The position numbers and the translations under genes were made by a program. Shown one piece after another: positions 12,035-37,448 of a stretch of DNA of 64,000 nucleotides. The stretch is from an uncultured Eisenbergiella sp. Its GTDB lineage: Bacteria > Bacillota > Clostridia > Lachnospirales > Lachnospiraceae. The notes below the pieces were generated by a model. That model had not been told where the DNA came from. It ran no database searches and worked only from the letters and a program-made list of their open reading frames with translations. The stretch spans positions 40,141 to 104,140 of the forward strand of contig CANQUI010000002.1 in NCBI GenBank assembly GCA_947626995.1. The letters run 5' to 3'. The first letter of the stretch is position 1, and each line of letters opens with the position of its first letter.

Positions 12035-12107
12035 GGAGACATAGCTCAGCTGGGAGAGCATTTGCTTGACGTGTAAAGGGTCGCAGGTTCGAGTCCTGTT
12101 GTCTCCA
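12035..12107 (+). tRNA. tRNA-Val (GAC)
   Basis: The acceptor stem GGAGACA pairs perfectly with TGTCTCC. The D arm GCTC/GAGC, anticodon arm TTTGC-TTGACGT-GTAAA (one G-U pair; anticodon GAC, reading GUC/GUU) and T arm GCAGG-TTCGAGT-CCTGT are all present, with discriminator A. CCA is not encoded. It stands alone between its own promoter and terminator. Confidence 0.95.
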
Positions 12108-12197: not shown

Positions 12198-12563
12198 TCA
12201 CAGGGAAACCACAGATTCTGTTCTCTGCGACGCAGAATTACAGTGTTTGACCAGAAGCTTTGCCTCTTCCACCAACAAAGAGCGGAAATCGGTGGGCAGT
12301 TGATTATAATAGTGGATCAGCCGCTGCAGCGTCTCCGCGTTCCCGGGAAAGGCAGGTTTGGGCGTGGTAGAGATTCCCAGCAGGTAATCCGTGGAAACCT
12401 GAAAATACCGGGCGATAGTGGACAGCGTCTGAAAGTCCGGCTCCCGGTAATCGTTCGCGTATCCGTTTAGCGTAGTGGCCGCTATGTTCAGTTCTTTCCC
12501 AAGCTGCCGCTGTGTCAGTTCCCTCTCTTCCATCAGTTCTTTTAGTCTTTGTCCGAATGTCAT
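12198..12563 (-). CDS. XRE-family repressor divergent from a lipoprotein
   Basis: This 121-residue protein has a Cro/CI helix-turn-helix at residues 1-60 (MTFGQRLKELMEERELTQRQLGKELNIAATTLNGYANDYREP) and a helical C-terminal segment, where such proteins usually dimerise. The start is the ATG at 12563, behind GGGGATAGGACT; the longer ORF-track start at 12602 has weaker support. It faces the lipoprotein gene at 12818 across a 254-bp spacer containing a consensus promoter with dyads. It is therefore the obvious candidate to bind there, and perhaps at the similar elements at 11040 and 15969. Regulation is inference. Confidence 0.88.
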   Translation of the reverse strand: MTFGQRLKELMEERELTQRQLGKELNIAATTLNGYANDYREPDFQTLSTIARYFQVSTDYLLGISTTPKPAFPGNAETLQRLIHYYNQLPTDFRSLLVEEAKLLVKHCNSASQRTESVVSL

Positions 12564-12653
12564 AGTCCTATCCCCTTTCATCAACGCAAGGACGTCTCGC
12601 AAAGAGCGCGGCGTCCGACATAGTTACTTGTATTGTAAAGTAGTTGCTTTTAC

Positions 12654-12707
12654 GGTTTCATGTAATATGCGAAACGAATTGACATTACTCGTAATGAGGT
12701 TTATTAT
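12654..12707 (+). promoter_or_regulatory. Promoter and candidate operators of the first lipoprotein module
   Basis: TTGACA (12679-12684) and TATTAT (12702-12707) are 17 bp apart. Immediately upstream lies AATATGCGAAACGA, inside a GTTTC-N11-GAAAC dyad. ATTACTCGTAAT, a palindrome but for its centre, follows the -35. The same arrangement of element and TTGACA recurs at 15969-15989. Confidence 0.75.
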
Positions 12708-12817
12708 TTATATTATGCGGATTTGAATTTTGTATGCAAACCACATTTGACGAAGGATCCGAGTTTTTTGGCGCAAAGGGAAAATGCACCGGGATCCCGT
12801 CTGAGAAAGGAGAAGAA

Positions 12818-14191
12818 ATGAGAAAAGAAAAGAGACAAAAAAACAAAATGACAGCGGTAACGCTGGTGCTGTCCCTGCTGCTTGCTTTGCTGGCAGGCTG
12901 CGGCGGATCGGAGAAGGAGACAACGTCAGCGACAGCGTCAGCGGAAACGGCGTCCGCAGAGGACGCATCAGAGGAAAACGGACAGACGGACGGCGCGCTT
13001 TTTACGCAGTGGTTGGACGGCCTGGAAGGCGACGAGAATGTGTTTTATCTTTGGGACCAGGACGCCGGCGAGGGGAGGCAGCTTGAAAACGGACAGTCCT
13101 ATGAGATGGAAAATGACGATCGTCTGGTTCTGTATACACCGGAGAAACCCAAAACGGCCTCCTTTATGGCAGACAACGACCCAGAAATAGAATCTTACAG
13201 CGATCATTATATGGTTTTTTCCGTCCCTGTGACCAGGATGATCCGGTTTGAGAGCGAGGTGGCGACAGATGCGGGAGACAGCATCGGGTTTTATTTTATC
13301 CTCGTTCCGCCCGGCGGTCTGACACCGGACTGGTATATGGATTCGGAAGGAATCAAAAACGAAGAACTGGGGATGAAAATACGAAAAGACAATTCCGAGG
13401 GTAGTAGGCTCTGGCTGCATGGCGGGTTTACGCAAAATGAGCTTCACTATGATTCCAGTAAACCTGCCGGCGATCTGGGAACGGTGTCAGGTACTCTGAT
13501 CTGTGGTTATTATGAGGGAGATCTGGACAGCTTTATGGCGGAGAATCCCTACCATCAATTTACGGAAAAAGGAAGTATAGGGGGACTGGAATATGCCTAC
13601 GGCAAAGACGAAGCGTTTTCAGATGTGGATGTAGTTTTTGTCGGAAACGGCATCTATTTGATGTTATCCTCCTTAAGTGTGGAAGAAAAAGACATAGAAA
13701 GTTATCTCAACACATTTATGAAAGCAGAGAGAGAATCTGACGCTTCCTTTTTAGCCTATTCCGCGGAGGATGGGTTCCATTGTCCGGCGCTGGGAATAGA
13801 GTTTCTCTATTTAGGGTTAATGGGGGAATTTGCGGTCCGTTGTGACAACGAAGAGAAAGGGATGACGATTGCCGGAGATAGCTACGCGGGAGATGTATTC
13901 CGTAGAGAAGAATCGGAAGATATCGAGACGGCGCTCCAAAGATTCGTAGATTCTTATACCGAAGCAGACTACGGCAGTACGACATGGACCGAAGCGGGAG
14001 AAGACGTGAAAAAAACAATCGGAAAGATCCCTTATCAGGGAAGAGGCGTACAGTCTGATCATTACGATGCAAATGATCAGCGATGGATCTTTTTGTCGGA
14101 TGAAACCCCCTGGATCATCATGATTTCTTTTTTCAGTGCTGACGGAGGGGTGTATGAGGATTACACCAATGTGATCGAGAAACTGAACTAA
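12818..14191 (+). CDS. Lipoprotein of unknown function, paralogue of the one at 36038
   Basis: This 457-residue protein has a lipobox (LLLALLAGC, Cys near residue 27), an Ala/Ser/Thr/Glu linker, then a large mixed alpha/beta region outside the membrane. The segment FYLWDQDAGEGRQLENGQSYEMENDDRLVLYTPE is closely mirrored in the product of 36038 (FCLWNPTTETGNILENDEVYKMEENDVLVLYKPEE), so the two are paralogues. This copy is longer, with an extra C-terminal region of about 150 residues. The start is the ATG at 12818 behind GAGAAAGGAGAAG; the track start at 12734 lies in the leader. Each copy is divergent from a small XRE gene. I recognise no family and no catalytic motif. Confidence 0.82.
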   Translation: MRKEKRQKNKMTAVTLVLSLLLALLAGCGGSEKETTSATASAETASAEDASEENGQTDGALFTQWLDGLEGDENVFYLWDQDAGEGRQLENGQSYEMENDDRLVLYTPEKPKTASFMADNDPEIESYSDHYMVFSVPVTRMIRFESEVATDAGDSIGFYFILVPPGGLTPDWYMDSEGIKNEELGMKIRKDNSEGSRLWLHGGFTQNELHYDSSKPAGDLGTVSGTLICGYYEGDLDSFMAENPYHQFTEKGSIGGLEYAYGKDEAFSDVDVVFVGNGIYLMLSSLSVEEKDIESYLNTFMKAERESDASFLAYSAEDGFHCPALGIEFLYLGLMGEFAVRCDNEEKGMTIAGDSYAGDVFRREESEDIETALQRFVDSYTEADYGSTTWTEAGEDVKKTIGKIPYQGRGVQSDHYDANDQRWIFLSDETPWIIMISFFSADGGVYEDYTNVIEKLN

Positions 14192-14289: not shown

Positions 14290-14595
14290 ATGAGCGAGGT
14301 CAAAAAAAACAGCGCACTCAATGAGATCAATGAAAAAGATCTGGAAGAGGTTTTGGGCGGACGTGACGAGCCTACGGTTCCCAGAGTGATTCCGGAAGAA
14401 GACGAGCCGGCCGCTCGGGAATGGATGGTCAAAAACTGCAACCATTGCAACAACAAAAAGGAGTGCAGCCGCAGCCGCGGCTGCCTCATTGTTTTGTGGT
14501 TGAAGAATTTGGCGCGTCGGCGCCGGTCAGTCGTTTGGGTTTCAGATAGTGGGCGGCGAACTGGGCGATGGCGCCGATTCGCCGGTAGGTCATAA
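14290..14595 (+). CDS. Putative double-glycine-leader peptide with Cys-rich core
   Basis: This short ORF (101 codons) starts behind a strong AAGGAGG site. Residues 1-24 resemble a bacteriocin or RiPP double-glycine leader (LNEINEKDLEEVLGG). They are followed by an acidic, Pro-rich stretch (RDEPTVPRVIPEEDE) and a block with four cysteines spaced C-x2-C-x5-C-x5-C (residues about 51-66). The last third is Arg-rich and antisense to the 3' end of the convergent radical SAM gene, so the true end may differ. No ABC peptidase-transporter is visible. A secreted modified peptide is plausible, but so is a small Cys-rich protein of another kind. Confidence 0.55.
   Translation: MSEVKKNSALNEINEKDLEEVLGGRDEPTVPRVIPEEDEPAAREWMVKNCNHCNNKKECSRSRGCLIVLWLKNLARRRRSVVWVSDSGRRTGRWRRFAGRS
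14471..14484 (-). terminator. Perfect 14-bp palindrome at the convergent junction
   Basis: GCAGCCGCGGCTGC begins one base beyond the radical SAM stop codon on the minus strand and lies inside the leader-peptide ORF. On the minus strand it is followed within 12 bases by CCTTTTTG. It may be a weak terminator for the radical SAM gene. Confidence 0.4.
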
Positions 14596-15880
14596 TCTTG
14601 CAGAGCAGATCCGTGAACTTGCCGTATTTGCGATAGAACAGATTGAACAGAAGATACGGCGCGCGCTGCTGTCTGCTTTCCGGCATACGGCGGAGGATGT
14701 TTTTCAGACGATAGGTCTGCCGGTAGACGCGCAGATATCCGCGGTACAGTTCCTTTTCCGTCATGTGGAGCGGACGAAATACCACGTTTGCCGTGTTGTA
14801 AAGGGAGAGGTCTTCCGTTGTGATGCGGCCCTGATTTTTCATGCGTTCATAGAGCGCCGTACCCGGATACGGAGTCAGAATGTGCGATGTCACCGTTTCG
14901 ATCTTATTTCGGACGATCCAATCCAGCGTGGCGTCAAAGGTCTCCGGGGTGTCTCCGTCAAGGCCGAATACGAAGCTTGCGTTGATCATGATGCCCCGGT
15001 CGTGTATGGCTTTGACGGCGCGGTCGTAATCGGCGGCGCTGTTTTGGATCTTGTGGACGCCGTCGATGGAGCCGGGATTGATGCTTTCAAAGCCGATGAA
15101 CAGGCTCTGACAGCCGCTTTCTTTCATGAGATCCAGAAGCTGCAAATCGTTGGCGGCGTTTAGGGATACCGCCGCGTTCCATTTCAGTTTCATGGGTTTG
15201 ATGACGTTGAGAAATGCCTTGGTCCAGTCGGGGTTGCCGGCAAAATTGTCGTCGATGAACATGATGTGCCGGGACCCCACCGCCCGGATATCCGCAAGCA
15301 CGTCTTCGATGCTGCGGTTCACATAGTCCCGCTGCGTGGCGCTGTTATAGCAGAAATCGCAGCGAAAAGGGCAGCCGCGGCTGGTATGTACCACATTGCA
15401 GTAGAGATATTTTTTGCGGTCGATAAAATCGTACGCCGGGGAGACGATCTGATCGCTTTTAAGCTTTCCTGCGCAGCGGTAGACTTTTTTGAGCGTCCCG
15501 GCCTGATAATCCGCAAGAATATCATACCAGGTCCCTTCGGCCGCGCCAATGCTGATTGCGTCAAAGCAGTCCGGAGGCAGGGTTTGAAACGCGGTGGTGA
15601 TGTGGATACCGCCGGCAACCACAGGGATGCCGCGCTTCCGAAACCGGGCGGCGATTTCTGCCGCGCGCGGGAACGTGTCCACCGTGACGGAGATCCCGAC
15701 GAGATCCGGATGATCGTCATAGCAGATGGGCTGGATGTTTTCATTTTCCAGCACGACGCAGTGTTCCTTCCGAAACATATTGACGATGGTTAAAAGGCCC
15801 AAAGGCGGCGCCATATGGATTTTCAGGTCGGTGTCCATCGGCCTTTTTTTCATTTTCGGCTGAATCAGTTTGAGATACAT
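14486..15880 (-). CDS. B12-binding domain radical SAM protein
   Basis: This 464-residue protein has an N-terminal cobalamin-binding-type domain (APPLGLLTIVNMF, then HPDLVGISVTVDTFPRAAEI and VAGGIHITT, about residues 25-110). A radical SAM barrel follows with the cluster motif CPFRCDFC near residue 175, then FIDDNFAGN, and a family C-terminal helical region. Enzymes of this class (BchE-like) perform methylations or other carbon chemistry on unactivated positions. The start is the ATG at 15880 (MYLKLIQPKM). It converges with the leader-peptide ORF and overlaps its tail. Modification of that peptide is a hypothesis; lipid or small-molecule substrates are equally possible. Confidence 0.88.
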   Translation of the reverse strand: MYLKLIQPKMKKRPMDTDLKIHMAPPLGLLTIVNMFRKEHCVVLENENIQPICYDDHPDLVGISVTVDTFPRAAEIAARFRKRGIPVVAGGIHITTAFQTLPPDCFDAISIGAAEGTWYDILADYQAGTLKKVYRCAGKLKSDQIVSPAYDFIDRKKYLYCNVVHTSRGCPFRCDFCYNSATQRDYVNRSIEDVLADIRAVGSRHIMFIDDNFAGNPDWTKAFLNVIKPMKLKWNAAVSLNAANDLQLLDLMKESGCQSLFIGFESINPGSIDGVHKIQNSAADYDRAVKAIHDRGIMINASFVFGLDGDTPETFDATLDWIVRNKIETVTSHILTPYPGTALYERMKNQGRITTEDLSLYNTANVVFRPLHMTEKELYRGYLRVYRQTYRLKNILRRMPESRQQRAPYLLFNLFYRKYGKFTDLLCKIMTYRRIGAIAQFAAHYLKPKRLTGADAPNSSTTKQ

Positions 15881-15968
15881 TTTTTTCTTCTTTCGGACTT
15901 CTTTTTGCGGCAGTATAGCATGTCGGTCCTCTCCCGTCAAGGAGACGGAGGTTCTTTTTTTGAAAAAT

Positions 15969-16012
15969 AATACGCAAAATGAATTGACAATACGCGTAAA
16001 GAAAAATAAAAT
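15969..16012 (+). promoter_or_regulatory. Promoter of the cell-wall operon with shared upstream element
   Basis: TTGACA (15984-15989) and TAAAAT (16007-16012) are 17 bp apart. AATACGCAAAATGA lies directly upstream and the palindrome TACGCGTA directly downstream of the -35. The layout copies that at 12664-12707. Confidence 0.78.
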
Positions 16013-16054: not shown

Positions 16055-16456
16055 ATGAAAAAGTATATGTTCGCGCTCATGGTTGTGGCGCTGATGGCCG
16101 GATGCGCGCCAAAAGAGGAAAAAGAGACGCAGGATCCCACCGCCGTGGAGGTTATGGCGACGCCGGTCCTTTCGGAAGAAAGTACGCAAATCGAGGAGGA
16201 GACCGGGACGGAGACGGAAACCGAAACTGAAACAGAGACCGAGACCGAAACCGAAACGCCGGACGGCGGTCAGGACAGGGCGCGGGCGCAGGCAATCGCG
16301 GAGGCCGAGGCCGCCGCGGCGGCAGCCTCGGCCTCCGCCCAGGAGGATACGGCGGTAACGGAGGTCAGCCGCACCTATATTGAGGATTGCGGGATGGACA
16401 GCGGTTACTGGGAGGTCCGCTATTCCGATGGGCATGTGGAATATTTGGAGGATTAA
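16055..16456 (+). CDS. Small lipoprotein with TE-repeat linker
   Basis: This 133-residue protein opens with a lipoprotein signal (MKKYMFALMVVALMAGC). It continues with an acidic linker built of alternating Thr-Glu (residues about 48-70), an Ala/Ser-rich helix (AEAEAAAAAASASAQ), and a short C-terminal domain (DCGMDSGYWEVRYSDGHVEYLED) that looks like a small beta module. The start is the ATG at 16055 behind TACGGAGGAAAA. It is the first gene of the wall operon, 17 nt before the VanX-like gene. The function is unknown; a surface-tethered accessory to the following enzymes is a guess from position. Confidence 0.8.
   Translation: MKKYMFALMVVALMAGCAPKEEKETQDPTAVEVMATPVLSEESTQIEEETGTETETETETETETETETPDGGQDRARAQAIAEAEAAAAAASASAQEDTAVTEVSRTYIEDCGMDSGYWEVRYSDGHVEYLED
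16201..16260 (+). repeat. GARACN microrepeat encoding Thr-Glu
   Basis: About nine imperfect 6-bp units (GAGACC/GAAACC/GAGACG variants) encode alternating Thr-Glu in the lipoprotein linker. Gain or loss of units would keep the reading frame. Confidence 0.8.
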
Positions 16457-16473: not shown

Positions 16474-18903
16474 TTGAAACGCAGCAGGAGAAGACGGCGT
16501 GACTACGGACTGGTGAGATACTATCCCATCAGTTACGGCAGGATCAATGACGTCAGGACAAGAAAGGGCAGGAAATCCCGGCGCGAGAGATCCTCCGCTT
16601 TTTTCGGCGCCTTTTTTGCAGCCATGGTCCTGTCGCTGATTGTAGCCATCGCAGCCATTTTATATATGGGAATGATCCGGCCGAAATTCGGCGACGGCGC
16701 CATCGAGATCAGTCTGGGAGACGGAGTGGTGGAGCTGACCTGGCCGGCTATGCGGGAAACGGACCGATGCCGGGTGTATTGTTATGAAGCGGCGCAGAAC
16801 CGTTATGTCTGGTACGGAGAATATGGGCAGGAAAAAATCGTGCTGCCGGATCCCGGAACGCAGGAAGAGCTGACGTATAAGCTCCAGGTCGTGCGGGAGA
16901 CGTCCTTTCTGGGATTCTCCCACGTTTTGCAGGGGGAAAAGAAAAAGCTTTCCCTGGACAAAGGCGTCGTGGCGCGGCCGGTGCTGACGGAGAGCGTCAA
17001 TGTCGGCCAGCGGATTTTTTCCGTACGCTGGCCGGTCAGGGCGGCAAACGAATACGAAGTATTTTTGACGGATCAAAACGAAGACTGGCAGCTTTACGAA
17101 ACAACGGTGGCAGGAGGCGTCGATCTGGATTTTATGCGGGACATGCAGGTGCCGCAGAGGGATCAGCCGATCCGGCTGGCGGTGCGGGCAAAGCGGGAAG
17201 GCGACGGGTATGTGATGTACAGCGCGCTGTCCGATCCCGCCTATATCGACCGCAGTAAGCTGATGGAAGGAAACCTCGGGATCACCTGGGCCAGGACGGA
17301 CGTCTGTCAGTATATTCTCCGGTGGGAGGCCGGAAAGGGCAGATATTACGAAATTCAGCAGTGGTCTCAAAAGACCGGAGAGTGGGAGACGAAGGAAACG
17401 CGCGACCGAAACAGCGGTCTGTCCTATGAAACCGGGCGGCTGCCCTCCGGGACGGAAGTGCGGTTTCGCATCGTCACCTATAACAACGAGACGGAGCGCT
17501 TAAGCGGCGCTTATGTGGACGATCCGACGGAGGTCAGTTTCCGCACGGAATATTCACCGCTTTACTGTACCATCTGGCCGCTGGTGGATCTGACCCTTCA
17601 GGAAAGCGCCCAGGGAGGGGCGGCCATGGGACAGGTGCCCGCCGGGACCCCGCTGTGCGTGCTGGGAGAAAGCGACGGACAGTTTCGTGTCCGTTACCGG
17701 GATCAGTACGGCTATCTCGACTCCCGGTACTGTATGATCAATCTGCCGGATTATATCGGAAATCTGTGCGCTTATGATATTACCAACAGCTACGCGTCCC
17801 TCTTCCGGGTGCACGGCTACGACATTCCCGGGATCACCGGCACGGTTGTCAAAGGATATGAAGGGATCTGTCTGGACGAAAAGGATTTCCTGGTGCCCTA
17901 TCTGTACCCGTGCACAAAGAAGCTGATCCAGGCGGCGGAGGCGGTGCGCGAGGACGGTTATTACCTGCGCATTTACGACGCGTTTCGACCCAACGAGGCG
18001 ACCCGGTATTTATACGACACCATGGAGCGCCTTATGGATCTGCCTTTGCCGGAACGATCGGAGACGGACTGGGCGGACGACGGAACAAGGGTTTGGAACG
18101 GGGAGCTTTACGGCGGACTGAAACCGGAGGCGCTTTCCCGTCTGGAAGCGATGTCGGCGGATCAGCTGCAGGTCATGGGGCTTTCCCAGAGCAGCGTCGC
18201 AGCTTTGGGCGGGCTTTCTCCGCAGGCGCTTTTGCAGATCAAAAATCTGTCGGAAGGGGCGCTTGCCGTTTTCGCTTCGCTGCCGGGCGAACAGCTTACG
18301 GCGGCGCAGGCCGATCCCAACACGGCGGCGCAGCTTGGGCTCGCGCAGCTTCTGGGCACGCTGTCTTTCGAGGAAATTTCTGTTTTACGGGGCCTGCCGG
18401 GGGGAGAGCTTACCGCATTTTGGCGATATCTGACGCAGAATATGCAAAGCTACGACAAGGAGATGACAAACGGGTCGTATCACCTGGGAAGCTTTCTGGC
18501 GGCGGAGACGTCGGCCCACAATCGGGGCATCGCGGTGGATCTGACGCTGGAACGGCTGGACGGAAAAGGCGCGGTGCAAATGCAGACCTCGATGCACGAT
18601 TTAAGCTGGAATTCCGCTCTGACGCAAAATAACGCCAACGCGGATCTGCTGGCGCAGTACATGAAGAACGCCGGCTTTCACGATCTGATTTCGGAGTGGT
18701 GGCATTTCCAGGACGACGAGACAAGAAACGAAATCGGCCTGAATTCCTATCTGACCCTGGGCGTAGAGGTGACAGGATGGAAAAAGGACGATCAGGGCTG
18801 GAAATACCGGCAGGCGGACGGCAGCTATTATCAGAACTGCACCGTTGAGATCGACGGCGCAAACTATACGTTTGATGAGAACGGATACGGGAGGGAAGAG
18901 TGA
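16474..18903 (+). CDS. Membrane-anchored VanX/M15D-type D-Ala-D-Ala peptidase, long form
   Basis: This 809-residue protein starts at a TTG 11 bases after a GGAGAG site. It has a very basic N-terminus, one membrane span (about residues 45-70), beta-sandwich repeats, an SH3-like domain (about 365-430), and a split M15D peptidase domain. The zinc and catalytic motifs are present: RIYDAFRPNEATRYLYDTM (near 498), SAHNRGIAVDLTL (near 680) and EWWHFQ (near 740). The C-terminus is a wall-binding repeat (GWKKDDQGWKYRQADGSY). About 120 extra residues, rich in L-S-x-E/Q helices, separate the first two motifs. The likely substrate is a D-Ala-containing peptide in the wall. It is paralogous to the gene at 22572. 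Confidence 0.87.
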   Translation: MKRSRRRRRDYGLVRYYPISYGRINDVRTRKGRKSRRERSSAFFGAFFAAMVLSLIVAIAAILYMGMIRPKFGDGAIEISLGDGVVELTWPAMRETDRCRVYCYEAAQNRYVWYGEYGQEKIVLPDPGTQEELTYKLQVVRETSFLGFSHVLQGEKKKLSLDKGVVARPVLTESVNVGQRIFSVRWPVRAANEYEVFLTDQNEDWQLYETTVAGGVDLDFMRDMQVPQRDQPIRLAVRAKREGDGYVMYSALSDPAYIDRSKLMEGNLGITWARTDVCQYILRWEAGKGRYYEIQQWSQKTGEWETKETRDRNSGLSYETGRLPSGTEVRFRIVTYNNETERLSGAYVDDPTEVSFRTEYSPLYCTIWPLVDLTLQESAQGGAAMGQVPAGTPLCVLGESDGQFRVRYRDQYGYLDSRYCMINLPDYIGNLCAYDITNSYASLFRVHGYDIPGITGTVVKGYEGICLDEKDFLVPYLYPCTKKLIQAAEAVREDGYYLRIYDAFRPNEATRYLYDTMERLMDLPLPERSETDWADDGTRVWNGELYGGLKPEALSRLEAMSADQLQVMGLSQSSVAALGGLSPQALLQIKNLSEGALAVFASLPGEQLTAAQADPNTAAQLGLAQLLGTLSFEEISVLRGLPGGELTAFWRYLTQNMQSYDKEMTNGSYHLGSFLAAETSAHNRGIAVDLTLERLDGKGAVQMQTSMHDLSWNSALTQNNANADLLAQYMKNAGFHDLISEWWHFQDDETRNEIGLNSYLTLGVEVTGWKKDDQGWKYRQADGSYYQNCTVEIDGANYTFDENGYGREE

Positions 18904-36037: not shown

Positions 36038-37087
36038 TCAGGGCTTATGAAAAAGCTGCGGCAGGATCGCTTCAATATCCCCGTTATAGGTTTCGTCGTA
36101 CGGATTTTTCGGATTCTCATAGATGATCTGGAAATGCAGTCCGTTGTAAGGGAACATGGCAACCTCCCGTTCCACACAGTCCATGTCGTTATATCTGCGT
36201 GTATCTTCTACTTTCTGATAGTAAATTTCCGCCGTGCCGTAAGGCGTCTCAACTTCGGCTGCTTTCTGCGATTCAAGCGGGTTCAGATTCAGATTACTTG
36301 TGGTTAGAAAATAACTTACTATGCCTTCGTCGGAACACGATTCCTCAGAAGAAACAAAAATCCAGGGCTCATCTTCAGCAACGCGATCGGTGCGGAATTG
36401 AAGAAACTCCGAAAGGGTATCCCCATGTTGCACGTCTCTATGCTCTTTGCACCAACCTTCCGGCAGCATAACCCCGATGATGGCGACGTCATTGCCGGGT
36501 CCGCAGAGATAGAAATCATAGCCTTCTTCGACGGGAATATAACTGGGCGGGCAGAGGGTAAAATGAAATTCGAAGTCGTTGCCTGAAGCGGAGGTTATCT
36601 TGGAAGAAAACGCAAGGATGTTTTCAAAAGAAACATTCCAGATGTCATAGAGATCCTTTTGGTCAATAGTAAAATGAAAATCGGAGCGTGCAGGCGATGT
36701 AAAGGAAGAAAATTCCTCCGGCTTATAAAGCACAAGCACATCGTTTTCCTCCATTTTGTACACCTCGTCGTTTTCCAGGATATTTCCCGTTTCAGTGGTC
36801 GGATTCCAGAGACAAAATTTGTATTCGTCATAGTCGAGGGAGAAAATCCAGCTGTCAAGGAAAGCATAGGATGCCTCATCCATCTGCGTCGTTTCTGTTG
36901 CGGTTCCCGTTTCCGTTGCGGTTTCTGTCGCCTGCGTCTGAGATTCTTCCGGCCCGTTGACGGCGGATTCTGTTTCCGGCCGGTCTGCCGTGCCGTCCGG
37001 TTCCCCGGATGCGCCGCATCCCGTCGCCAGCAGACAGACGGTCAGCGTCAGACAGCAGCCGATTGTAAGCAAGTTTTTTCGTTTCAT
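36038..37087 (-). CDS. Lipoprotein of unknown function, paralogue of the one at 12818
   Basis: This 349-residue protein has a lipobox (TVCLLATGC, Cys near residue 24) and a Thr/Glu-rich linker. Its outer region includes FCLWNPTTETGNILENDEVYKMEENDVLVLYKPEE, the counterpart of a segment in the lipoprotein at 12818. The following FHFTLCPPSYIPVEEGYDFYL stretch also matches that paralogue's FYFILVPPGGLTPDWYM. The copy is about 110 residues shorter. It faces a small XRE gene (37197) across a spacer with two matched 19-bp dyads. The ribosome site GAAAGGAGAAG precedes the ATG. I know of no function; the doubled module suggests a regulated surface component. Confidence 0.82.
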   Translation of the reverse strand: MKRKNLLTIGCCLTLTVCLLATGCGASGEPDGTADRPETESAVNGPEESQTQATETATETGTATETTQMDEASYAFLDSWIFSLDYDEYKFCLWNPTTETGNILENDEVYKMEENDVLVLYKPEEFSSFTSPARSDFHFTIDQKDLYDIWNVSFENILAFSSKITSASGNDFEFHFTLCPPSYIPVEEGYDFYLCGPGNDVAIIGVMLPEGWCKEHRDVQHGDTLSEFLQFRTDRVAEDEPWIFVSSEESCSDEGIVSYFLTTSNLNLNPLESQKAAEVETPYGTAEIYYQKVEDTRRYNDMDCVEREVAMFPYNGLHFQIIYENPKNPYDETYNGDIEAILPQLFHKP

Positions 37088-37109: not shown

Positions 37110-37182
37110 TTGACGTTTAGTGAATGTCAATTTATCGCAAAGTATATCATATAATTTCCTAAATGACAAGGACAGAATGTCA
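37110..37182 (-). promoter_or_regulatory. Promoter of the second lipoprotein, flanked by two 19-bp dyads
   Basis: On the minus strand TTGTCA (37169-37164) and TATACT (37146-37141) are 17 bp apart. On the plus strand TGACGTTTAGTGAATGTCA (37111-37129) and TGACAAGGACAGAATGTCA (37164-37182) share TGAC-N7-GAATGTCA, with centres 53 bp apart. One covers the -35 and the other lies in the leader. They are good operator candidates for the neighbouring XRE protein. Confidence 0.75.
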
Positions 37183-37196
37183 AAAAGGAGGCGAAC

Positions 37197-37448
37197 ATGT
37201 TCAAGAATAAAGCCCTTTCGGGGAAGAACAACATTTCCGGGAAAAACATTGCAAAATGCCGTAAGGCGATCTCACCCAGGCTTTCCCAGCGGGGTCTGGC
37301 GGACAAAATGCAGCTGGAGGGGATTGAACTGGATAAAAATGCGATCCAGCGGATTGAGTCCGGCCAACGCTTTGTGACGGATATCGAGATCCGGGGGTTC
37401 TCCAAGGTGCTGATGGTTTCGTATGAGCAGCTTTTGGATCAGGAATAG
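37197..37448 (+). CDS. Small XRE-type regulator divergent from a lipoprotein
   Basis: This 83-residue protein has a basic lead (MFKNKALSGKNNISGKNIAKCRKA) and a helix-turn-helix (LSQRGLADKMQLEGIELDKNAIQRIESGQRFVTDIEIRGFSKVLMVSYEQLL). No sensor domain is present. The AAAAAGGAGGCG ribosome site is strong. It is divergent from the lipoprotein at 36038, and the shared spacer contains two matched dyads. The arrangement mirrors the XRE/lipoprotein pair at 12198-14191, although this XRE protein is shorter and not obviously the same subfamily. Confidence 0.87.
   Translation: MFKNKALSGKNNISGKNIAKCRKAISPRLSQRGLADKMQLEGIELDKNAIQRIESGQRFVTDIEIRGFSKVLMVSYEQLLDQE

Follow-up and report, generated by a model that had tools for sequence, protein, structure and literature searches.

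Divergent XRE genes and candidate operators paired with a variable lipoprotein family in an uncultured Eisenbergiella genome

INTRODUCTION

In divergent autoregulated Cro/C1 (XRE) pairs, such as phage CI/Cro and those of the SinR/DicA type, a small HTH protein is encoded divergently from its target, and the operators lie in the common spacer and overlap the promoters. The restriction-modification controller (C) proteins are also tiny and XRE-like, and have paired operators. Here we describe two loci resembling the Cro/C1 pairs in these respects in a 64 000-nucleotide stretch of DNA from an uncultured Eisenbergiella sp. (hereafter the window), where the small XRE genes XRE-A and XRE-B are each divergent from a lipoprotein gene (lipoproteins A and B, respectively; Table 1). 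Within the limits of the material searched, the literature yielded no paper on these operators or on an XRE-lipoprotein pair. Based on homology, gene layout, conserved sites and promoter overlap, we are fairly confident that variable surface lipoproteins are under the control of dedicated XRE repressors encoded back to back with them, and that XRE-A has a further regulon in trans.

Table 1. Features of the two lipoprotein loci and of the second XRE-A element, in window coordinates
Feature	Position	Strand	Description
XRE-A regulator	12198-12563	-	122 aa; Pfam HTH_3 E=2.2e-14, 53.7 bits versus cut-off 23
XRE-A operator candidate TAATATGCGAAACGAATTGACATTACTCGTAATG	12663-12696	+	contains palindrome CATTACTCGTAATG (12683-12696)
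Promoter of lipoprotein A	12679-12707	+	TTGACA-17-TATTAT, 11/12 consensus positions; -35 and spacer within element
Lipoprotein A	12818-14191	+	457 aa; signal peptide, lipobox LLAGC
~110-aa N-terminal domain of lipoprotein A	12989-13333	+	alignments; model pLDDT ~90
Second XRE-A element CAAAATGAATTGACAATACGCGTAAAG	15975-16001	+	0 mismatches; expected 0.00 by shuffles
Small acidic lipoprotein, other family	16055-16456	+	lipobox LMAGC; element ~54 bp upstream
Lipoprotein B	36038-37087	-	349 aa; signal peptide, lipobox LATGC
XRE-B operator candidate O1 TTGACGTTTAGTGAATGTCAA	37110-37130		sole match in window, expected 0.01
Promoter of lipoprotein B	37141-37169	-	TTGTCA-17-TATACT, extended TG; -35 within O2, O1 just past -10
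XRE-B operator candidate O2 TGACAAGGACAGAATGTCA	37164-37182		53 bp from O1
XRE-B regulator	37197-37448	+	83 aa; HTH_3 16 bits versus cut-off 23; 203 homologues

RESULTS

Lipoproteins A and B share an N-terminal domain

The original prediction had staked the relationship of the two lipoproteins on a significant alignment, and protein alignment returned 27% identity across 240 aa (E=3e-18). The homology comprises the signal peptide, an acidic, Thr/Glu/Ala-rich linker and an N-terminal domain of ~110 aa, and the C-terminal parts did not match one another. Both proteins carry a lipobox cysteine after a hydrophobic stretch, read directly from the sequence, and their processing is predicted from it. 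In agreement with the earlier reading, which recognised no known family for the lipoprotein, neither protein scored above the cut-off in Pfam or NCBIfam or matched PHROGs, and a tblastn search of phages and plasmids with lipoprotein A returned no match.

The AlphaFold model of lipoprotein A was confident in the N-terminal domain only, with one helix and nine strands, and the single-sequence model of lipoprotein B was unusable (pLDDT 38). A fold search with the domain model gave no match at E<=0.001, and the sub-threshold matches were to sandwich domains of the CopC-like, Rib and S-layer kinds. The model shows a helix and an Ig-like beta-sandwich, without a convincing fold match. A binding or adhesin-type role at the surface would be the most likely guess for these lipoproteins of variable sequence.

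A small ORF (14290-14595, + strand) that has a strong ribosome site and encodes a double-glycine leader, NEINEKDLEEVLGG, lies 99 bp downstream of lipoprotein A and is weakly similar to type-A lantibiotic leaders (E=0.025). At the 3' end, this ORF passes through a terminator-like hairpin into a convergent gene encoding a B12-binding radical SAM protein (14486-15940, - strand).

Four different XRE genes stand beside the lipoprotein family

The divergent layout was confirmed at both loci. The claim of one two-gene module present twice had to be given up, since XRE-A and XRE-B are different genes whose products do not align at E<=100 and which have different candidate operators. The start of XRE-A was set at ATG 12563 because its orthologues begin at MTFG, and a start at TTG 12602 was dropped. 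Orthologues were found in four sister genomes (G001, G007, G008 and G009, at 56-77%), where the divergent neighbours are not of the A/B lipoprotein family and include a TPR membrane protein (G008) and secretion-type genes (G009). Among 15 aligned XRE-B homologues, the HTH core around NAxQRIES.RF.TDIE was invariant, and a profile search with the homologues found no relative of solved structure. Assignment of XRE-A to the RstR family of repressors was rejected at 49.8 bits versus an NCBIfam cut-off of 80. The window has a single tRNA gene, tRNA-Val(gac) (12035-12107, + strand), immediately adjacent to the xreA 3' end.

The lipoprotein domain is rare, being present in 3 of the 397 sampled family genomes, namely the window genome (2.5 Mb, 125 contigs), the sister species G008 and G236. 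Weak profile matches in G483 and G452 were rejected on inspection, with no lipoprotein of the A/B kind at these loci, and a match in G003 covered residues 3-75 only (signal peptide and linker) and was not confirmed by the domain profile. A third XRE gene is divergent from the lipoprotein gene on contig C3 of G008 (L025, protein from 4598; HTH_3 E=3e-13), and a fourth, short one from that in G236 (L026 3039-3260; HTH_3 E=5.4e-14). All four non-amplified (founder) lipoprotein loci in the three genomes, A, B, G008:C3 and G236, accordingly have a divergent XRE gene, and it is a different XRE gene in each case. As HTH_3 matches in the window genome numbered 29 (~1% of genes, assuming some 2400 genes), chance linkage is unlikely, with the loci being few (four in three genomes). 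One lipoprotein family is therefore combined with several different XRE regulators, and is not part of a duplicated unit. The G008:C3 spacer (L025 4461-4526) contains repeated CTCTTWAAGAG-like sites and the G236 spacer (L026 3280-3340) contains TAGaCCaaatTGGaCTA and TAGcCCgtttTGGgCTA, which likely serve the third and fourth XREs as operators.

Three further paralogues in the window genome, a tandem pair on contig C29 (C29a and C29b) and a single copy on C102, have no XRE gene nearby. Homologues of this kind, which the original prediction had named as evidence against itself, formally exist in these amplified copies, and the promoters of all three contain the XRE-A element. The promoters and 5' ends of the three are near identical, so that these promoters are not independent of each other. 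Between C29a and C102, the first ~130 codons are near identical (dS ~0.2) and dS rises to ~1 beyond that point, suggesting that recombination may have preserved the promoter and signal while the rest varied; dN/dS across the paralogue comparisons (0.16-0.45) gave no sign of positive selection. The domain is present twice in C29a, C102 and the G008:C3 protein. Contig C29 begins within one copy and C102 begins 11 bases past the end of another, and the assembly may thus hide further copies.

An XRE-A element precedes five lipoprotein genes

The XRE-A element, TAATACGCRAAAYGAATTGACANTACGCRTAA, is conserved upstream of XRE-A orthologues, and its 27-bp core in the lipoprotein A promoter is CGAAACGAATTGACATTACTCGTAATG (12670-12696). 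Searching the genome for the pattern CRMAAYGAATTGACANTACGCRTAAWG with up to three mismatches gave five sites, against none for the reversed-pattern control. All five precede lipoprotein genes (A, C29a, C29b, C102 and the small acidic lipoprotein), and each has TTGACA, 17 bases and then an AT-rich -10, with the spacing at the trans sites judged by eye. The element in front of the small lipoprotein overlaps a TTGACA-17-TAAAAT promoter, and this gene is a putative trans target of XRE-A. Starting 18 bp past it, a D-Ala-D-Ala dipeptidase-like gene (Peptidase_M15; 16474-18903, + strand) possibly belongs to the regulon owing to this proximity.

When a weight matrix was derived solely from the four sites that lack an adjacent XRE, it located the element upstream of XRE-A itself and of each of the four orthologues, in a similar place and the same orientation, with 0 of 500 shuffles scoring as well in four cases and 1 of 500 in the fifth. 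The left-half pattern had its best match in each of the four sister genomes just upstream of the XRE-A orthologue; as this pattern drew in part on those same upstream regions, independent evidence comes from the matrix test. Together, the sites point to a probable XRE-A regulon acting in trans on lipoprotein genes beyond lipoprotein A. A further XRE-A-like site was seen in G007 (L073, G007:C8:93064-93090), upstream of a zinc-ribbon/TPR membrane protein gene group.

Paired XRE-B sites are conserved across gut Clostridia

The spacer of XRE-B contains two 19-bp palindromes of the TGACATTYASTRAATGTCA type, 53 bp apart. Of 80 loci with an XRE-B homologue, almost all in gut Clostridia, 79 had enough upstream sequence. 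A site matching at least 17/19 was present in 67 of these, and the O1/O2 pair at 49-54 bp in 64 of the 79, compared with 0 of 395 Markov shuffles and 0 of 76 downstream stretches; the consensus was derived from few loci (window, G008, G010 and G019), which are not independent of it. In the window genome, the full site occurs at locus B only. The divergent partners of XRE-B homologues vary widely and are mostly non-lipoprotein, with many cytosolic proteins, ten lamin-tail/CotH family proteins (by Pfam on one member) and about nine lipoproteins. One pairing recurs: at L113, L114, L118-L122 and L124, the operator pair and XRE-B homologue are divergent from a protein of ~800 aa that belongs to the same family at every locus, with lamin-tail, Fn3-associated and CotH kinase domains in the L113 partner.

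The gene order of locus B (prfB, DUF975, small membrane protein, lipoprotein, XRE-B, tex) is also found in G008, where XRE-B is 93% identical to that of the window. The G008 lipoprotein aligns with lipoprotein B at 26% across 166 aa in the C-terminal part, and a profile search did not find the N-terminal domain in it. By these comparisons, the regulator and operators were retained at this locus and the cargo appears to have been exchanged.

DISCUSSION

In the mechanism that we infer, an XRE-B dimer would bind each of O1 and O2, the palindromes flanking the promoter region, with O2 occluding the -35 of the lipoprotein B promoter and O1 lying just beyond its -10; the two dimers, five helical turns apart, would possibly bind cooperatively. 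As O1 and O2 also front its own gene, XRE-B probably controls itself. XRE-A would bind the element in which the lipoprotein A -35 (TTGACA) is embedded, and would act in trans on the four further lipoprotein genes with the same element. Once a signal lifted repression, the cell would display a lipoprotein anchored at its surface and bearing an Ig-like beta-sandwich. Because the sites overlap the promoters (the -35 and spacer at A, the -35 and the region past the -10 at B), repression by occlusion is favoured. The original idea of a repressor controlling the lipoprotein is partly supported, by linkage beyond chance and by conserved promoter-overlapping candidate operators; its reliance on one repeated module is not. 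Weighing against the mechanism are the unrelated divergent neighbours of XRE-A orthologues and the mostly non-lipoprotein genes next to XRE-B homologues.

Three other explanations were weighed against this. The XREs might only autoregulate, their placement beside lipoproteins being incidental and the lipoproteins having independent promoters, as would suit the many different genes adjoining XRE-A and XRE-B homologues; we consider this unlikely given an XRE at every founder locus, candidate operators overlapping the lipoprotein promoters, and XRE-A elements before distant lipoproteins with no XRE nearby. Slightly less probable still is that the XREs activate the lipoprotein genes, as controller proteins do in restriction-modification systems. 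XRE-B does match the PADLOC controller-protein model weakly (E=6.5e-5) and has paired operators, but restriction-modification genes are absent beside it, and operators covering the -35, the spacer or the stretch just past the -10 of strong consensus promoters favour repression.

We give the same low credence as for activation to the view that the TTGACA-containing element is a strong promoter motif spread by recent duplication, not an XRE-A operator. The near-identical, non-independent promoters and 5' ends of C29a, C29b and C102 are what such duplication would leave, but the element is found, too, in front of the unrelated lipoprotein gene at 16055 and, in four other species, in front of XRE-A orthologues with unrelated neighbours.

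In a broader reading, whose chances we put at about even, XRE-B with O1/O2 would be a portable cassette in gut Clostridia, coupled to many unrelated genes, often for surface proteins, while one fast-changing lipoprotein family repeatedly gained different XRE repressors and XRE-A came to control a lipoprotein regulon via operator copying. For these genes, the analysis yields regulator-operator predictions that can be tested: exact sites of 19 bp and ~32 bp, a regulon of five genes, and a small family of regulators whose footprints are conserved in gut Clostridia. The results further suggest that commensals of the gut keep variable surface lipoproteins under dedicated, exchangeable repressors.

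Comparison with known systems

The N-terminal domain model shares an Ig-like sandwich with CopC-like, Rib and S-layer proteins, but at ~10% identity, with no sequence match and no fold match at the threshold used. A type II toxin-antitoxin system with an XRE antitoxin was rejected, the partner being an exported lipoprotein on the other strand and not a small cytosolic toxin of the same operon. XRE-B was likewise rejected as a restriction-modification controller, its neighbours being lipoprotein B and tex with no restriction or methyltransferase genes adjacent; compared with those controllers, its operators are set 49-54 bp apart and its partner genes are widely varied. Unlike in the divergent Cro/C1 pairs, the predicted target here is a surface lipoprotein, a single lipoprotein family is paired with four different XREs, and XRE-A also has candidate trans sites at other lipoprotein genes.
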